Shown here in pieces: positions 51,530-64,000 of a DNA stretch of 64,000 nucleotides (position 1 is the first letter of the stretch; every line of letters starts with the position of its first letter). A program made the position numbers and the translations under genes. The stretch is taken from the NCBI GenBank assembly GCA_035041965.1, contig JAPYMA010000913.1, forward strand, positions 62,001 to 126,000, given 5' to 3'. Source of the stretch: Anisakis pegreffii (lineage: Eukaryota; Nematoda; Chromadorea; Rhabditida; Anisakidae). Under the pieces are notes generated by a model. That model saw only the letters and a program-made list of their open reading frames with translations, had not been told where the DNA came from and searched no databases.

Positions 51530-53461
51530 TCAGTGTTCTACTGTAAACTCTACTTGATTGTACATGCATTCCGAAACTTTCGGACTAAAACTATCCAATT
51601 TTCTGGCACCGAACGAAATTCGGCTTTCACCAGCGAATATTTTGCATTTGTCTCGAAGTTTGGCGCAACGATAAGCATTGATATTGATAATGCATCGACT
51701 CCACAGGTCTTCTGAAATAGTGCAAATAAGTTTCATCTGCATATTCTGAATTACGAATTATGAATGAATAAATGCTACAAGATTGAAGCAAGACAGCCAT
51801 TACGAATAAAATGACGCGCAACAATTAGTCTTGCACAAAACTATTTCTTAAAGAAAGCTGGTCACAAGCTCTCCAATATAAAGTACTTTCGGCAGATATT
51901 ACATATCGTGAAATAAGAGAAAATGACAAGGCATTAATGATAACAAATTGACCATCCTGCGCATGAAGTGTAGTCATCCGGAGCACAAATCTCCTTTGAA
52001 GTGTGATTTTAAACGAAATCATGCTGGATTGCAGCTATTGCAGACCATAAATAAAGCAACACTCACGAGCGAGAACGCATTTTGCAACATGTTGATACAT
52101 TTTGTATGCTTTTCGAGAGTTTTGCGGCAGTGGAGCGTTCAGTTGTTTCGTACACTCGGATTCCATTTTCAAGCAGTCAGCCTGACCATGATAGCGCTCA
52201 CACATGCCGAAGAGACCATCTGAAAAGAATCGCTCGCATTCATATGAGAAGGAAATGTTTCCAAATCTTGTAACATGTGGTGACTGTCTGCTTGGTATCG
52301 ATCACCTTGCCCTCCTAATCAAACATCTAATCCAACGGTATCACAGGAGAGGGAAATTACCCATTTTAGAGTAATTTGAGGATGTCAGGGATGATGGAGG
52401 GGTTGGGAAATTAGTTTTCACGTTATGTGTGGGAATAGTAAATTATTGTAGCGGTTGAGGGGGCGGAGGAGGGGAGGGGAGGATAATGACGGCCTGTCAG
52501 TCCAACGAAGAGGGTAGTGAATCACCGGGACGTGAGGACACTGTCCTAATGCAACATTGAAGTAGATAAACCTAAGTTTATGAATGACTGAGCTGGATTT
52601 TAGGCAGTTGCTGATCGGCGAACACGAATATTCTGGCGACTTGTTCAAAGTTCAAAACGATTGCCAGGCTAATGTCAAAGGATGGAAGGACGGTGAAACT
52701 CCATCAGGCCAGTGCCTCTTAAACTCTGCGCCGTAATTACCATGCGGTCGGATGGTTAGCTTATAGGATTCAAAGAAAACTTATGGCAAAATTGAAACTT
52801 GCTTGCTCAGCGCATTAGATTCGTTGACTTTGCAACGGAGTTCTCTAGTGGTTCGCCTTAAACGTGTAGAACTGGACTCATTTATAGATTTACCAAGCAA
52901 ACGGGCTCATGGATAACCTATTCATCCAGAAATGCTGGCTACGATGTGCCTCGTAGCAAGCAAATGGAGTGAAAAAAGAAATTGCCACGAAACCTCGTTT
53001 GATGCACTCCGAAACGGACGGTTCGTATTTTCGATCGGCTCGATTCGGTTGTTTTGGTGCCTCTATCGCAAACGCTTTGAGACATTCGTCTTCGATCACA
53101 TCACAAAACTCCTCATCATGCCTCTCAACGCATTGTCCCCATACGTTACCTAAATATGCGATCCTGACAACGATAAATGAGGCAGTTGATCAATCAGTGT
53201 TTCCATCGTTTCAGCTAGGTATCAGGACTTCAAGCGTTTTTCAAATCTTATCCATAACTTATTCAAGTTCTTGTAGCAAAACTGAAACGACTAATTCGTT
53301 TCAAGAAAGTCCAGCAAACTGATGACAACAGGAGATTGGCGAAAGCAAATTACAATGATGAGTGGCGAACCTGGATAGTCAGAATCCAATATATCATAGT
53401 CTAACGATGAGATAACGTTGTGTAGAAACACAATTAGCAATAATACAAAGTATGGTTGCAT
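51530..53461 (-). CDS. secreted protein with three C-x8-C-x6-C-xn-C domains
   Basis: Proposed four-exon gene: 53461-53371 (signal peptide MQPYFVLLLIVFLHNVISS), 53149-52994, 52219-52067 and 51711-51530 (stop). Phases agree, giving 193 residues. Each of exons 2-4 encodes one domain with the same cysteine spacing: C-x8-C-x6-C-x25-C (ends ECIKR), C-x8-C-x6-C-x24-C (ends KCVLA) and C-x8-C-x6-C-x25-C (ends ECMYNQ, then VEFTVEH). The internal domain exons are flanked by phase-1 introns, so domains can be added or lost without frame change. I do not recognise the family; nematode DUF19-type domains would be one comparison. The alternative is that exon 4 belongs to a separate gene with a weak start at 51800. 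Three-exon relatives lie at 57-64 kb. Confidence 0.65.
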
Positions 53462-54625: not shown

Positions 54626-54947
54626 ATTTGTGGTGTTCCGTTGTCGTTGTTCAAGATATTTGTGAAACTGGATGGAAAGTGAAGAGTGCCTAATTGAGAC
54701 AATCCAATTGTTGTCGAGTTGAAATTGGCGCATAAAAATTGCTGTAACAAGAGAGCCCATAAAAATGTATCGCGAATCACGGCACCACTTTAATCCTCAA
54801 CCAGAATTGCGCTTTCAGCCAAGTTAGATAGCCGTTTCTTGGAGTTGGAATCTTTCTTAGCCACAAAAATGTGTGATCATTAATCACATAGTTTTGTCTG
54901 ATGTGTTCCGTGACCGGTCAATCTACGTAGAGCCATCTAGCCAAACG

Positions 54948-55332
54948 ACCGTTTGCCTAAAGACACGTTGCCCAACGGACAGTTTGCTTAACTTAAGGTT
55001 TTTAATGGATATTGCGCTTAACTGTCCGTTAGGCAAATTGTCCGTTAGGCAAACTGTCCGTTAGGCAATGCGTCTTCAGGCAAGCTGTTCCTTAGGCAAA
55101 CTGTCCGTTAGGCAATGTATCTTCAGGCAAACTGTCCGTTAGGCAATGCGTCTTCAGGCAAGCTGTTCCTTAGGCAAACTGTCCGTTAGGCAATGTATCT
55201 TCAGGCAAACTGTCCGTTAGGCAATGCGTCTTCAGGCAAGCTGTTCCTTAGGCAAACTGTCCTTTAGGCAAACTGTCCGTTAGGCAATGTGTCTTTAGGC
55301 AGACTGTCGTTAGGCTAAATGTCTTTAGGCTG
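54948..55332 (+). repeat. TTAGGC-bearing minisatellite
   Basis: Degenerate 16-17-bp units of the form CTGTCCGTTAGGCAAA, alternating with CTTCAGGCAAGCTGTTCC variants in a higher-order pattern. TTAGGC recurs many times. The first ~45 bp (TTTGCCTAAAGACACG, GGACAGTTTGC) are in inverted orientation to the rest, giving a hairpin-capable left edge. Confidence 0.9.
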
Positions 55333-57192
55333 ATTAAACGGGTACCGATGTGTTCAATCAATTCACTTATAGTTAATATCAAAACAACATTCAACCGTTC
55401 GTGACTTAAAGCGATCATCTGTTCGGCATTCGATCGCACTGATCAGCAGTCGTATTACATCGATCGACTCGTGTTCCAAGCCTTCCTAAACATTCTCGTT
55501 TCCCATCAGATCTGTCTGCAAATTTGATCACTCGTACACAGTATCCGTTCACTCACTCATCAACAGTGATGAAGAACTGTGTGAACGTGTATATCGATAT
55601 CGCATCCAAACTGCACATTCGAGTACGTGGTACTTTGGGATGGAAATTGTTTATGTTTGGTTTCGGATTTCAAATTTGGCGTTCAAAAACAACTCTGGCT
55701 CGTCTACCTACAATGAATGAAGCAAACTCTCATCGGTTCTATTCTAAATAAGCACCCACAAATGCATTTCATGCGTTCGTTTTCGACTGTAGCCCGTTGA
55801 AAGTTACGATTTTAAAAATTGCGCCTAGCGAACCCCTTCGCATCACCGTAAAGGTCGCTGATGATTTTATGGACATAAAATCATCAATGATATAAAATTA
55901 CATTGGACAGATGGACATAAAACTATCAAGACACTTTGTCACAACCCTGTGGCTATTGTCCTCCCCGATACGGATGATAGTTTTGCTCATAAAACGTTAA
56001 AAAGATAAAACTAACAAACTGTCATGTTTGTAAGGCTTTATTAAAATAAGAAACCAATGAACAGTGCGCGTAGAGCAGATATCGACATCATCAGCCGGAA
56101 ATCAACATCAGGAACAGGTAATCTACAGCCAGAACACAAAATGAACCCCATCAGCAATAGAAAGTCCGCATCAAATCAATATCATCAGCACAAAATTATC
56201 AAAATAAACAAAACAAAACAAGCAAATGAATCGAAAGGCTGAATTAAAAATGTTCCTGCTATTTAAAAATGATATCACAAATAATTTGATGCTCATTTAT
56301 TCGCCTTATGTGTGCGGTCAGTAGCGTATAATTGAGCAATATGGAATTCAAGCATTACTTGAGACGTTCGATAAATGCCATCAATGCTGATCAAGTACAG
56401 TTTCATTACGTGCTGGTTGGCCAATCACTGATCAACACCTGAATGCTGATCTCCGGATGTCTATTCGAATAAGGTGATTCTCATTCGAAACACTCTTGGT
56501 AGCTACATCCGTGGTGAATCTCACTTCTGCTGCTCTTTGCCGTTGACTAGATGATGGTGTTGGAGTTTTTTTGTCAGCATCAGTGAGTAGAATGTACTGC
56601 GCAATGGTCGAACTGTTCGTGGTGCAGATGATAATCGTGCAACAGATCATCGATCATCTGCACTGCTTTTGCCTTTGATTTCTCACAAAAATTCAATCAA
56701 CAAGAGGAGAACGTGTATTCACGCACCAAACCATAAACCAGGTGTAACATTAGGAAACGTAATTGAAAATGTTGGAAGGATATTAATTCACACAGGCGAT
56801 ACAGACCAGGACTCGTCGGGTGGAAACTTTGTGGTTGGAGAAGGGCGCCAAGGTTGATCGGGAAGGGAATCCAGCAAGATACTCCGGGAACGAAATTCTC
56901 CGTCCTATAAGATTATAACGTTTTTGGGAGGAAAATAATTGAAAATCTTGAAATCACATTAAAATACTTCGCATAGTGCAACGGATGAGTGAAAGATGTA
57001 TCCGATGATTATGGAGACAAACGTGATCAGAGAAGCCAAATTGAACAATCCAAAATAAAGAGAGAGTATCACTGGAAACATTTCGTGAATGTTCGATCGT
57101 TTATTCGTATGTGATCGAATAGCACTTAAGGGAACGCTGACACGCTGATTTCGAGGACAACCGTCTTTAAGCGCAATCAACAGCGGATCGAT

Positions 57193-57762
57193 TTATTCGG
57201 CAAATTTTCTCATCCCTGAAAAACGGATTCGATAATTAGAGACGTTGCGAGACGAGATCAATGAACTGAAAACTTTTACTGATTCTGTCGTAACTGAGAT
57301 ATGTGTTCCCAAATTTGTTGAATTTTTGCACAGAATGTAACTGAAGAAAAAAACTCAGAAGAATGTTTTCTCAGCTAAAGTGTAACAGCGATCAAGTGAA
57401 GCGGTTTTCTTGATTCCCGTTCACATCGCGCAATTTGCTCTCAAACCCAGAACTATTCAGAAAATTGAGATGAAAGTACTACGTACCTCGCTTAATGCAT
57501 CGTGCCTTTCCTAGTGAATCATTTTTTCCCCTAAAACGCCAGTCGCATCTGGATACTATTTCGGCGCACTTCTGCATTCCAAATCTGGTCACACAACCGA
57601 TAACAGTTCCACCCAGAATCGCATCTTCAATTGTCAGCAAAATTCTCAATTTTCGTCAACTTCTAAGAAATCCAAAGAGAAAAACGCTCACTCACTTGGG
57701 GAACGTCGATCAGCGTTGAGCGAATGCGCGAGCAGAAGCAAAATGAGCACTTGTAGAAACAT
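57193..57762 (-). CDS. small secreted C-x8-C-x6-C family protein (copy D)
   Basis: Exons 57762-57696, 57624-57487 and 57215-57193 are in phase, for 75 residues. Exon 1 is a signal peptide (MFLQVLILLLLAHSLNA). Exon 2 carries C-VTRFGMQK-C-AEIVSR-C, 15 residues, then C-IKR. Exon 3 adds only GMRKFAE before the stop. Gene structure, intron phases and cysteine spacing match copies A-C on the other strand. It is transcribed away from copy A from a shared upstream region (TATA boxes at 58156 and 58465). Its sequence is the most diverged of the set. Function unknown; small secreted Cys-rich proteins in nematodes may be effectors or antimicrobial, which is inference only. Confidence 0.75.
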
Positions 57763-58316: not shown

Positions 58317-58329
58317 CGGCATTAAAGAA

Positions 58330-59470
58330 ACAGTATAAATTGCGGGGAATACCAATGCAATGCAGTGGTTCAATTTGCATGATTAATTTTGCATAAGTCA
58401 TTTGCAAGTTATGAATTATTACTCCGATCGCTGAGTTGTCGCATAATTTCGCTTCGGATGAGGCTATATAAGACCAGTTTTTAGGTCAAAAAAGCATTTG
58501 TTGGAGGAACGCTGGGATCGGCAGCCCCAGTGCAGGTGCTTGGGGAGGTGTGTTAGGTTTCTTCGAAAAGATAGACTGTTCGGGTCTTCCTAGCCCAGAT
58601 TTCACCTGAGTCAGTGGTTCAATTCTAACTTGACGATTTGCGATAGCCATTTTTAAGGCCTAAGCTCGTTTGTCCATATCATGAAGCATTTATTCGTCTT
58701 TGACGGATAGGTGTCGGCTGTGGAACGAACAGAATCGACCAAATCGCTAATTTCTGCATTTGCGATCAGCTCTTGCATGTTGCGCTTCTACTCTTCGCCA
58801 CTTCTACTCTGAATGCAGACAAATTACCCATTAAAAGCGATGCTGGGAATGGTTTGCTGAGTCTTTGACCATCTGATTCGCAGTCTTTCACATCTTAACA
58901 CGCAGCAAACTGGAAACTGAATAAAACACGATAAGTCACGTACAAGTTAAGATCTGATAGTGACAGGATGAGCAACGATGTCCTCGCATAAATGTATAAG
59001 TGTACAGAGATTCTATCGAAACGTTGAACATCATGCTTTCAGGATGCTTCGACAACTGCTCATTTTTCTTCTGGTCGCAAATTCCATCGATGCTGATAAA
59101 TATTCCCAAGGTGAGTGAGCGTTTTTGTCTTAATTTCACTTCTTTGAAGGTGACAGAAATTGAAAAATTTGCTGACAGCTGGAGAAGTGTTCATACGCAA
59201 AGTTATGTCGAAATGTCGCGAGGATTTCACTTCTGGCCAGTGCGACAAGTTGTATTCAAAATGCAAGGATCTTTACAAGTGGAACCTAAGAATAGGCTTT
59301 TGTATAGAAAAAGGTAAGTCCTTTTTAGATTTGCGATCACTTCACAAACATTTCTCAGTTAGAAGGCAAATAACCCGCGGCGAAATGGACTCAAGATGAC
59401 CGCTTCACTTCATCGCCGTTATGTTCTAGCAGGGAAAGTTCATTCTGCGCTTCTTATCAGCTCCATCTTG
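58330..59470 (+). repeat. segmental duplication, copy A (partner 62894-64000)
   Basis: Colinear with 62894-64000 at a constant offset of 4564 bp. TATA box, signal exon and both exon 2 boundaries all keep that offset, so there is no net indel over more than 800 bp. Non-coding parts differ at only a few percent by eye. Confidence 0.95.
58465..58471 (+). promoter_or_regulatory. TATA box, copy A
   Basis: TATATAA inside a conserved block (TCGCTTCGGATGAGGCTATA). The ATG is 579 bp downstream, so the leader is long or contains an intron. Confidence 0.7.
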
Positions 59471-59670
59471 TGAAAAAATTCAAGAAGTATCAATACCCTT
59501 TGCATCATCACAGCTATGAGATACCGTCAGTGAAAATCATCAGCTCGCCGGTCACGTCTCGCAACATCTCTGATTATCGTTTTCTTTTTTCAGGGCGTCT
59601 CAGGATGTGGTGCGTAATAAGCCCAATTAATGAGATCTCCAAACTGCTATGTAAAAGAGATTGGTTCTAG
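59044..59670 (+). CDS. small secreted C-x8-C-x6-C family protein (copy A)
   Basis: Exon 1 59044-59110 (signal peptide MLRQLLIFLLVANSIDA), exon 2 59179-59313, exon 3 59594-59670; in phase, 92 residues. Exon 2 has C-REDFTSGQ-C-DKLYSK-C, 12 residues, C-IEK. The homologous acceptor in copy C would start exon 2 at 59185 instead; both keep frame. Exon 3 is uncertain: the first acceptor gives a 25-codon tail with two more cysteines, while a second CAG ten bases on gives a four-residue tail, closer to the short tails of copies B and D. Confidence 0.75.
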
Positions 59671-61052
59671 TTGCACTAAGAAAACAGTTGTGTTGTTGTG
59701 TGATGCCGTTGTTTGCAGCATTCAATTAGTTTATTGTTCGATATGATTTTCAATGTGATCAAATGCCAAGCATTTTAATTGTAGTTTAATAAATCTCAGT
59801 TATTCTCTTCGATGTACCATTCAATGTTATGAATAAACGTTCGAACATTTGAGAACTATTTTCAGAAATTTTGTTCATTTTGCGGTGTTCAATTAGGCTT
59901 TTCCAACCACGGTTGTCCCCAACGGCTAATTGATACATCTTCAATTCATCAGTCGTGCTCTATGAGTATTTGTCCAATCTGCGCAACAGGTTAAACTCTG
60001 AAGGCAATGCTCGTGAGGTAGGATGCAAACTGTTTGCCTTCAGTCTCACAGCTCCACCGTGCTATCCGCTGAGTGAAGAGAACACGCTAATATTCATAAG
60101 GCAAAATCGGCTTAGTATCGTTTTCCATCAGTTCAAGTGGGCGCGCATGAAAAACCTGCTCACATGAGGTAACCGTCACTGTTTTATATCAGATGCCAAC
60201 CATTTCCTGATGGGCGGAAAATGATTCGATCACATTGGTCATATTTTCAACCACTCGGCGGACACTGAACGGTCTCCGCGGGAGCTCAGAGCTACAGATC
60301 AAGACTGATAGCAGAATTGTAGAAATGATGCATCGAAGGTCGCATAGACTCTGAACTCGTTATTTTGAAAGAAACTGTTGAAAACAACATGAGTGATTTT
60401 GCATAATTCATTTGCATGCTTTGAATAACTGCTGTGATTGCTGAGTTGCTGCAAAATTTTGATCTAGGTGAGGCTATATAATGCCAAGCTTTGCATCGAA
60501 GAACCATTCGTTGCCGGCGCTTTGGTATCGACTGCACCGGTGGAAGCGCTTGGCGAGCTGCGTTTCTACATCAATTGGCTGTTAGAATCTTCATCGTCCA
60601 GATGTCACCTGAATCATTCCTTCAACTCTAACTGGACGATTTGTGTAATTACTTCCGAGGCATAAGCCCGTTCGTCCATATCACGAAGCACTGATTCGTC
60701 TGTGACAGATAGGTGATGACCGGCGAACGAAGAGAATCGACTGAATCGCTACTTTTTGCATATGCATTGAGCTCTTGAATGTTCCACTCGTTTCATCTTC
60801 CGTACGCTTGCTTGCGAAGACTTACTGAAAGCGTGCAAATTGCCCATCGATGAGATATTCGGGATGGTATGCCTAGTCTTTTACTGACTGATTACCATAC
60901 TTAACATCTCAGATCGCAACAAATCGGAAATTGAATTACACGATAATCTACCTACAACCTGTAATCTGAGAGCGACATGATAGGCAACGATATCCACACA
61001 TTATTGTATAAGTGCACTGAGATTCTATCGAAACGTTGAGTTTACTTCCAGA
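59671..61052. other. spacer with relicts and copy B promoter
   Basis: 59800-59935 resembles 61690-61830 (shared 3' flank of copies A and B, including GAATAAACG, a possible polyadenylation signal). 60252-60300 is a relict of the N1 tRNA-like core (ACTGAACGGTCTCCGCGG). The copy B promoter block begins near 60380. Confidence 0.6.
60475..60481 (+). promoter_or_regulatory. TATA box, copy B
   Basis: TATATAA in GTGAGGCTATATAATG, aligned with the other family members; 578 bp before the ATG. Confidence 0.65.
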
Positions 61053-61583
61053 ATGCCCATACAACTGTTCATTGTCCTTCTGCTCGCAGATTTGACCAAT
61101 GCAAATCTGATCCTTGGTGAGTGAGCGCTTTTTCGTTGAATTTCATAGGGGTTAACAACATTGAAAAACTTGCTGATATTTGAAGATAAAATAATCCATG
61201 CTATTATGGACGCATGTGAAGATATGTATGGAGATTTGGGCTGCGGAATTGTTCGCGACGAATGCAAGGAGCTTACATTCGCGAGATTTGGTGAAGATAT
61301 ACCAATCGAAGTAGCAAAATGTATTTTTGAAAGTTTGTCCTTCTTGTAGTTTAGATTATTTTCCACAACATTTCTCGATTTATGATCAACTAACGCAATC
61401 GAGAAAACTTATCAGTTCCGTCTTGTGGAAAAATTCAGCATATTTGGAAACCCACTGCATTACCACCGCTACGATACATTCAGTGAAAATCAACAGGTCA
61501 TCGATCATGTTTCGCAACATCTCTGATTATCAATTCGTTATTTTTCAGGGATGAGAGAAGTAAAACATTATACCGGCTGGTAG
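61053..61583 (+). CDS. small secreted C-x8-C-x6-C family protein (copy B)
   Basis: Exons 61053-61116 (signal peptide MPIQLFIVLLLADLTNA), 61186-61332 and 61549-61583; in phase, 81 residues. Exon 2 has C-EDMYGDLG-C-GIVRDE-C, 18 residues, C-IFE. Exon 3 gives RMREVKHYTGW and stop, with no further cysteine. Intron phases equal those of copies A, C and D. The surrounding sequence is related to the A/C duplication but clearly older. Confidence 0.75.
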
Positions 61584-62893
61584 TATTGCTTTGAAAAATG
61601 ATTGCCCTCCTGTTCGGCACGAATTCACAGCAGTCCCAATGATTCACTAGTGTTGTTGATTATCAGTTGTTTTGTCCAGTGTTCTTTCAAGTGCTATTCT
61701 ACCTCATATGAATAAACGATTAAACATTATAGCGAAGTGTTCAGCGGTACTCTTTTTTTGGATTGTTCGATTCGGCTTTTCCACCACGGTTACCCCATTG
61801 CTCACGGGATACAACTTCCACTCACTGCTCGACAATGCATACACCGTTCTGAGACCTGAGAATATGCGTGAACCAAATCATCCAGGAAAGCATGGAGTTG
61901 CTTGGCAATCTTAAAGATGCAGTTGGCATTGTTTGTGATGTTGACTGACACTGTTCGCGATGTTACTTGTATTGCTGGTGCAAAGGCGACAATTAATAAT
62001 ATGATTTATCCACACAATAAATAAAGACGACAATAATGGTTGAGTAGAGTGAAAATACACTGACAGTTGAGTGACGAAATATGCCGATGATGGCTCGTAC
62101 ACAACAACAACACTGGATACACGAACAACACACTGACTGACTAGTACAGAGGAACTGATATAACCGCACTGAGCTACTTATATAGTGATTGAGATTAGCT
62201 GATCACAAAACAACAGTCACGAGTTGCCAACGGTGGCCAGAGAACACACGACGTACAAAGCACTATAGAGAGACACACAATAAGCCGCAAGCAATGAACA
62301 AGAGATCATCAGTTTATCTCAGCATCATCCTTCAGGCTTAAAGGTGCTACTCAAAACCTTGCTGCAGAACTGTTTCATTGATCACGTCACAATGATCAAT
62401 TATGCACAGTTTGGCTGAATTATAGAATCGCTGAGGCAGTTTGAGATGTCTTCAGAAAATTGGTTATATCTCTTTAACTATGCAAATCCCTCGACAACAT
62501 ATATACTACTCTTAAAGCTGAGAATCTGCTAAATACGATGGTAAAAAGAAACTAGGGTATTGCTGAGCAAACTTGAGAGTACGGCTGTTTGAAAATAATG
62601 CTCCAGATATTCCAATAGAACTGTTTAATTGATATAACTGAGATCAAACGTGCACTGTTTGGTGGCCCATGAGCGGAGGGATCACCAGTCTAGTGCAACG
62701 CAACAAACGTTCCATTCAAAAAATATCCGACGTTGTGATTCTTGCAAATTTCGATGAGAAGGTCCCGGTTTCTACCTTAATTGTGCTGATCAAAATCATT
62801 GTCCAACGTGAGATTGCACTATTCGTCCATTATGATGTCCGCTTTTCACGGTGTGCTCTTTCTTGCATAAGTTTTTGTATCGGCATTACAGAA
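61584..62893. other. spacer between copies B and C; no gene seen
   Basis: A relative of the 28.7-kb tandem repeat lies at about 62460-62640. The frame at 62669-62902 has no support. Confidence 0.5.
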
Positions 62894-63028
62894 ACAGTCT
62901 AAATTGCGTGGAATACCAGTGCAATGCAGTGGTTCAATTTGCATGATTAATTTTGCATGAATCATTTGCAAGTTATGAATTATTACTTCGATCGCTGAGT
63001 TGTCGCATAATTTCGCTTCGGATGAGGC

Positions 63029-63035
63029 TATATAA
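63029..63035 (+). promoter_or_regulatory. TATA box, copy C
   Basis: TATATAA in the same block as copy A, at exactly the same 579-bp distance from the ATG. Confidence 0.7.
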
Positions 63036-63607
63036 GACCAGTTTTTAGGTCAAAAAAGCATTTGTTGGAGGAACGCTGGGATCGGCAGCCCCAGTGCAGG
63101 TGCTTGGGGAGGTGTGTTAGGTTTCTTCGAAAAGATAGACTGTTCTGGTTTTCCAGGCCCAGATTTCACCTGAGTCAGTGGTTCATTTCTAACTTGACGA
63201 TTTGCGATAGCCACTTTTAAGGCCTAAGCTCGTTTGTCCATATCATGAAGCATTTATTCGTCTTTGACGGATAGGTGTCGGCTGTGGAACGAACAGAATC
63301 GACCAAATCGCTAATTTCTGCATTTGCGATCAGCTCTTGCATGTTGCGCTTCTACTCTTCGCCACTTCTACTCTGAATGCAGACAAATTACCCATTAAAA
63401 GCGATGCTGGGAATGGTTTGCTGAGTCTTTGACCATCTGATTCGCAGTCTTTCACATCTTAACACGCAGCAAACTGGAAACTGAATAAAACACGATAAGT
63501 CACGTACAAGCTAAGATCTGATAGTGACAGGATGAGCAACGATGTCCTCGCATAAATGTATAAGTGCACGGAGATTCTATCGAAACGTTGAACATCATGC
63601 TTTCAGG

Positions 63608-63877
63608 ATGCTTCGACAAGTGCTCATTTTTCTCCTGGTCGCAAATTCCATCGATGCTGATAAATATTTCCAAGGTGAGTGAGCGTTTTTGTCTTAATTT
63701 CACTTCTTTGAAGGTTACAGAAATTGAAAAATTTGCTGATATTTGAAGAGCGGTTCATAGCCGAAGCTGTGTCGATCTGTCATAGGGATTTTACTGCTCA
63801 CCAGTGCAGCAACTTGTACTTCCAATGCAAGGATCGTTGTGAGCATAAACTTCAATTAGCCTTGTGTATACTACAAG
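63608..63877 (+). CDS. small secreted C-x8-C-x6-C family protein (copy C, 3' partial)
   Basis: Exon 1 63608-63674 (MLRQVLIFLLVANSIDA) and exon 2 63749-63877 are in phase; exon 3 lies beyond the window. Exon 2 has C-HRDFTAHQ-C-SNLYFQ-C-KDR-C, eight residues, C-ILQ, so it gains a fifth cysteine relative to copy A. Its acceptor (GATATTTGAAG) matches copy B rather than its near-identical partner A. Confidence 0.75.
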
Positions 63878-64000
63878 GTAAGTCCTTTTTAGATTTGCGA
63901 TCACTTTACAAACATTTCTCAGTTAGAAGGCAAATAACCCGCGGCGAAATGGACTCAAGATAACCGCTTCTCTTCATCGCCGTTATGTTCTAGCAGGGAA

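Follow-up and report, generated by a model that had tools for sequence, protein, structure and literature searches.

Why should two neighbouring genes be almost identical in their promoters, signal exons and introns, yet differ at about a third of the positions that encode their mature proteins? This question is raised by copies A and C of a gene cluster in a 64,000-nucleotide stretch of the Anisakis pegreffii genome (assembly GCA_035041965.1, contig JAPYMA010000913.1, positions 62,001 to 126,000 of the forward strand; henceforth the window, in whose numbering coordinates are given). Exon models for five small copies, A to E, were inferred from the DNA alone. All five models are coherent, each with a signal exon followed by an exon 2 of phase 1-1 and a short third exon. 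The copies can be read as nematode genes for short secreted proteins in a small inverted and tandem cluster. We argue that A and C are probably old paralogues in which interlocus gene conversion homogenises the flanks, leader and introns while selection keeps the mature exons apart.

Divergence between A and C is concentrated in the mature-protein exons

At an offset of 4564, A and C align without a gap from the promoter until shortly before intron 2 ends, as an earlier note on this DNA had claimed, with the first gap at about 59546. The two copies differ at 16 of 726 positions in the 5' flank, 3 of 67 in the signal exon (exon 1) and 1 of 64 in intron 1 (up to 59174). Exon 2 then differs at 42 of 129 positions, intron 2 at 12 of 272 plus 12 gap columns (4.4%), exon 3 at 23 of 76 plus 15 gap columns (A counted over 59595-59670), and the 3' untranslated region with its flank at 31 of 579 plus 12 gap columns (5.4%). 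In total, 60 of 1641 noncoding positions differ (3.7%), and the block outside the mature exons is about 96% identical, gaps not counted. Exon 3, which lies partly beyond the window and was absent from the earlier note, is as divergent as exon 2, whereas the intron of 280 bp that separates the two is not; the divergence drops back near the codon that serves as the stop of C. The exon 1 and exon 2 counts reproduce those of the earlier note to the base; where it had seen about 3 differences in the 95 bp after exon 2, we likewise found 3 in the first 95 bp of intron 2. It had put the contrast between introns and exon at roughly tenfold; in our counts coding DNA diverges about nine times as much as noncoding DNA. 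The note had also pointed to kept cysteines among changing residues. Indeed, all four exon 2 cysteines are conserved between A and C, as is the MWCV motif, while 36 of the 64 compared codons change residue, 21 of these in charge class.

A chimeric assembly or collapsed haplotypes might produce islands of this kind, and the assembly may hold errors, as indicated by COX1-like pieces broken by stops and by partial copies. Such an error, however, would hardly yield two different open reading frames that both keep their cysteines, splice sites and phases, and do so again in exon 3, and the coherence of all five gene models likewise speaks against it. We regard an assembly artefact as hardly credible.

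Synonymous sites in the divergent exons exceed the noncoding divergence

The earlier note offered accelerated evolution or exon replacement as explanations. Acceleration, as usually described for venom toxins, would mean that the block was duplicated recently and that extreme positive selection then acted on the mature exons alone, the introns being simply young. The edges of divergence match the coding edges, shared stop position included, and fit this account, as do the residue and charge changes, the dN>dS of the sister pair B-E (see below) and the sharp outer ends of the A/C block. However, over the 64 codons of exons 2 and 3, counting gave 0.42 for both nonsynonymous (dN) and synonymous (dS) divergence, and codon maximum likelihood (ML) gave a dS of 0.32, a dN of 0.48 and a dN/dS ratio (omega) of 1.5 that does not differ from 1 (P=0.34). 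Since synonymous sites are as divergent as nonsynonymous sites by counting, A and C are not a case of classic dN>dS acceleration.

Moreover, A/C synonymous sites lie about tenfold above the noncoding divergence. The 28 codons that retain their residue carry 6 synonymous differences over 14.2 sites, compared with 0.5 expected from noncoding DNA (Poisson P=1.7e-5 at the 3.7% noncoding rate and 1.4e-4 at the 5.4% 3'-flank rate). In a recent duplicate that was simply under positive selection, synonymous sites should resemble introns, and in A and C they do not. In a simulation of selection only, with 28 codons held to their residue, a mean of 32-33 of the observed 36 residue changes was reached at an omega of 45, the largest tried. 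Without multi-nucleotide mutations and with the mean noncoding rate, none of 2000 runs produced six or more same-residue differences; with the 3'-flank rate the frequency was 0.0105. Acceleration after recent duplication therefore needs omega to reach at least about 45, and the synonymous sites would further require frequent multi-nucleotide mutations; the noncoding differences are also clustered, and we consider this account rather unlikely. The synonymous evidence for old exons is strong but not decisive, since frequent multi-nucleotide mutations would weaken the excess.

Noncoding DNA and trees carry probable traces of gene conversion

The clustering of differences was tested over 1696 ungapped columns, exon 1 included, with 60 differences and 20000 permutations. 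A and C match without a single difference over runs of 296, 204 and 157 bp (permutation P=5.5e-4, 5e-5 and 5e-5), and the observed sum of squared run lengths was matched by 0 of the 20000 permutations. The runs are not explained by constraint, because other paralogues differ by 27-33% there: divergence between A and B is 27% within the 296-bp run and 33% within the 157-bp run, and between A and D it is 33% across 59820-59975, a part of the 204-bp run. The outer ends of the A/C block are more divergent than the remainder (25/340 versus 35/1356, P=1e-4), a post hoc comparison with cut points chosen from the observed differences.

We next built bootstrapped neighbour-joining trees for eight segments along the genes. 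A and C grouped together in all eight, at 93-100%. D grouped with E at 100% in the 5' flank from -330 to -1 and at 83% from -650 to -330 (where D and E contribute only about 145 bp), and B grouped with E at 100% in exon 1, 100% in exon 2, 99% in the 3' flank and 81% in intron 1. These conflicting trees suggest segmental exchange within the cluster. Since flank and coding trees conflict, B seems to carry a 5' flank from another lineage than its coding region; the flank is closer to A and C, the coding region closer to E.

Fast exons are a family trait, and B and E show dN above dS

As a control we compared the pair B-E, in which exon 2 differs at 52 of 147 positions (0.35) against 0.27-0.32 in the introns. 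Counting gave a dN of 0.57 and a dS of 0.20, ML gave an omega of 4.6 (P=0.025), and across methods dN was 0.57-0.66 versus a dS of 0.14-0.20. Because synonymous sites in B-E are not above the introns, the exons are not hypermutated in general, and diversifying selection is indicated in this pair. Across the remaining eight pairs exon 2 divergence is 0.55-0.60, higher than that of their introns (0.18-0.36); fast exons are therefore a family trait. Diversifying selection in the family is plausible given the dN>dS of B and E, and to this extent the acceleration proposed in the earlier note stands, but for A and C themselves dN/dS is only 1.0-1.5.

A mutational process aimed at the mature exons, such as the error-prone synthesis proposed in print for conotoxin exons (PMC3862624), would leave nonsynonymous and synonymous divergence equally raised and the edges sharp, as in A and C. 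Against it, dS in B-E falls below the B-E intron divergence, and the cysteines and MWCV motif are conserved between A and C; no search was made for the machinery. We think a process of this kind extremely unlikely.

Among larger relatives of the exon 2 module, all 58 same-length exon pairs (exon distance 0.02-0.30, drawn from 128 module exons at seven loci) have exons less divergent than their flanking introns (medians 0.283 and 0.569); being non-independent, with some pairs from exact repeats and introns near saturation, they show only the usual order there. Position-specific cysteine codons, judged by eye, were uninformative with five copies.

The assembly yields no donor for the divergent exons

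Exon replacement would mean that exons 2 and 3 of a recent duplicate were overwritten from an older paralogue, now lost or unassembled. This would account for the equal nonsynonymous and synonymous divergence; B resembles a mosaic of two lineages, and module exons of phase 1-1 form a large pool in the genome. However, searches with A exon 2 DNA and with the C protein matched only A and C, and a DNA search running from intron 2 of A into its 3' flank, which covers exon 3, matched only this cluster. More broadly, all matches to A DNA and to the proteins of C, B and E lay within the cluster. Thus no exon 2 donor of the kind envisaged in the earlier note was found in the 122.6-Mb assembly, with the limits that the protein of A was not searched genome-wide, that the tool's counts are lower bounds and that the assembly may be incomplete. 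Replacement would also require that each of four tract ends fell no more than a few bases from an exon edge, with intron 2 staying at 4.4%, and we judge it improbable. The equally raised nonsynonymous and synonymous divergence and the edges at coding boundaries are compatible with a further reading, in which the mature exons were diversified by an exon-confined mutational or exon-exchange mechanism that draws on the pool of phase-matched four-cysteine exons, with promoter, leader and introns as a constant cassette. We consider this very unlikely.

Probable conversion around exons spared by selection

We favour, as probable, the reading that A and C are older paralogues between which interlocus gene conversion repeatedly copies the promoter, leader exon, introns and 3' flank. 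Conversion would keep these surroundings 2-5% different, while conversion over the mature-protein exons would not persist, most likely through selection for two different mature proteins. The spared exons would then retain their old divergence of about 33%, and the two proteins would have a promoter and leader of one standard type. The net charge of the mature part, taken from where exon 1 ends, is +7 in A, -2 in C, -5 in B, +8 in D and +1 in E. From the charge changes and the variability, which are its sole basis, we infer a possible role in recognition or conflict, for example as a secreted effector, antimicrobial or chemosensory protein.

Several observations weigh against conversion combined with selection. 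Six synonymous differences is a small number, and selection alone gives six or more with P of 0.07-0.17 if about 10% of mutations are adjacent two-base changes and 0.42-0.68 with 30%, although an omega of at least about 45 is needed here too. There are only five informative copies, the intron 2 tree is split (B+E 41%, D+E 31%, B+D 28%) and the flank from -100 to -1 groups B with D (71%). The exon edges are very sharp, intron 1 holding a single difference over 64 bp and intron 2 a single one over its first 60 bp, which argues against this combination because a gradient would usually remain. Finally, the sharp outer ends of the A/C block also suit a recent duplication.

Conversion with selection-spared exons has been reported from other systems, and the A/C pair would be a nematode case by analogy. 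In the ruminant paralogues CEACAM32 and CEACAM1, leader exon and introns are converted while mature-domain exons escape, for which natural selection was proposed as the cause (PMC7042247). The homogenised leader and introns and divergent mature exons resemble those of A and C, but CEACAM32 is a mammalian immunoglobulin-domain receptor analysed with GENECONV on several paralogues, whereas we have one close nematode pair with an apparently unrelated helical module. At the human red/green opsin exon 5 'peak of divergence', flanking introns are homogenised and exon divergence is kept around selected sites (PMC3924837; related islands of divergence appear in PMC3728101); that peak is linked to a pair of functional residues of the exon, whereas A and C differ by about 33% over two whole exons. 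Snake toxins (PMC2711939, PMC6062510) and conotoxins (PMC3862624) share with A and C a conserved signal exon and introns, fast mature exons and a retained cysteine scaffold. Unlike them, A and C lack a significant dN>dS, have no known venom tissue or toxin homology and encode a predicted three-helix module. In literature searches we recognised no paper on this nematode family, which is weak evidence of absence.

The A/C pair offers a clean natural case, in a nematode secreted family that lacks a Pfam match, of neighbouring genes whose coding and noncoding divergence differ about ninefold. It is also a warning: a higher conservation of introns than of exons, commonly taken for accelerated exon evolution in venom and immune genes, can reflect converted surroundings; comparing synonymous sites with introns helps to tell conversion from acceleration.

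Gene models and layout of the cluster

The order is G (minus strand, three modules), D (minus), A, B and C (plus) and E (minus, beyond the window), and F is probably a further member at the contig end. Exon 1 of A is preceded by TTTCAG|G, by eye a possible trans-splice or cis acceptor adjoining the ATG. Intron 1 ends with CTGGAG in A and with TTGAAG in B, C, D and E; the acceptor used in A may lie 6 bp further upstream, at 59179, which is the coordinate of the earlier note. The exon 2 motif C-x8-C-x6-C-x(12-18)-C matches A, B, D and E; the extra cysteine makes C escape the pattern.

Features of the cluster in window coordinates
Feature	Position	Strand	Remarks
Copy A block	58318..60249	+	TATA-like promoter (by eye), leader, exons 1-3, 3' flank
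A exon 1, signal peptide	59044..59110	+	3/67 differences from C
A exon 2, four-cysteine module	59185..59313	+	start could be 59179
A exon 3, hyperdivergent	59594..59670	+	23/76 differences from C plus 15 gap columns
Copy C block	62882..64000	+	continues to 64834 on the window scale (contig C652:126834)
C exon 1, signal peptide	63608..63674	+	gene model
C exon 2, four-cysteine module with one extra cysteine	63749..63877	+	
C exon 3	64152-64252	+	outside the window
Copy B	61053..61583	+	exons 61053-61116, 61186-61332, 61549-61583
Copy D	57193..57762	-	exons 57762-57696, 57624-57487, 57215-57193; head to head with A
Copy G, multi-domain relative	51530..53132	-	module exons 53132-53004, 52202-52077, 51694-51566 (motif spans)

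An RCC1 gene neighbours the cluster; its best hit with a species name is from Toxocara canis (36% identity), followed by Gongylonema pulchrum (43% over a smaller part of the query), and proteins without a species name at 42-48% rank between the two. At 54900-55350 the window holds a tandem and inverted repeat tract of TTAGGCAAACTGTCCG-like units; TTAGGC is the nematode telomere word.

The exon 2 module and a giant array of relatives

Exon 2 is predicted to encode a three-helix, four-cysteine module: AlphaFold2 gave three helices for the A module (mean predicted local distance difference test, pLDDT, 90.7; folded with residue 1 as M, a GTG start reading, instead of V) and for a G module (mean pLDDT 77.5). 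In Pfam, six proteins and four module sequences gave nothing above the curated cut-off (NCBIfam was not searched), and among 5.8 billion proteins no candidate homologue of C shared three words. Searching the PDB by sequence returned one row for A1, a 20-residue peptide at 0.11, and 24 rows for A2, the best (0.001) to that same peptide and judged chance. By fold, the PDB gave 0 matches to the A module and 7 non-significant rows for the G module, among them Varroa OBP1 with a root-mean-square deviation of 1.7 over 38 columns but an E-value of 9.8. Rfam gave nothing at an E-value of 0.1 on loci L003 and L004.

A profile of 115 distinct array modules was run against 1070 six-frame segments of the window and the rest of the contig. 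Its eight best matches were the three G modules, E, A, B, F and D (E-values 3e-9 to 0.011; best reversed decoy 0.044). C was not recovered (E-value 5.6, below unrelated segments), and its tie to the family rests on the alignment with A. The exon ends alike in the array, A and C: last cysteine, 10 bases, GT.

The array itself occupies about 105-247 kb of contig C1684 (loci L045-L049), where module exons lie on one strand and each encode one C-x(7-9)-C-x6-C-x(n)-C domain; the few tested had no Pfam match. One query gave 150 scored matches among 273 candidates on five contigs, most on C1684. The array may be one enormous secreted multi-domain gene. Copy G, a three-module relative just before the cluster, connects the small genes with it. 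At about 209-235 kb (L049) the array contains many repeats of a six-exon unit, each about 1767-1782 bp long and with the same module sequences, which reads as recent internal amplification.

Other features of the assembly

COX1-like pieces at C496:187-1425 and C446:101459-102776 contain several stops in the invertebrate mitochondrial code and are either nuclear copies or uncorrected read errors. A COX1 piece had 7938 matches, and among the 120 listed none bore a species name. The exact spliced leader (SL) SL1 22-mer occurs 132 times in the assembly and 0 times in the reversed control, which marks the genome as that of a nematode. At C14:549-3882 and C181:498-2175 exact SL1 22-mers recur in tandem every 552 bp, a spacing that suggests an SL RNA gene array.

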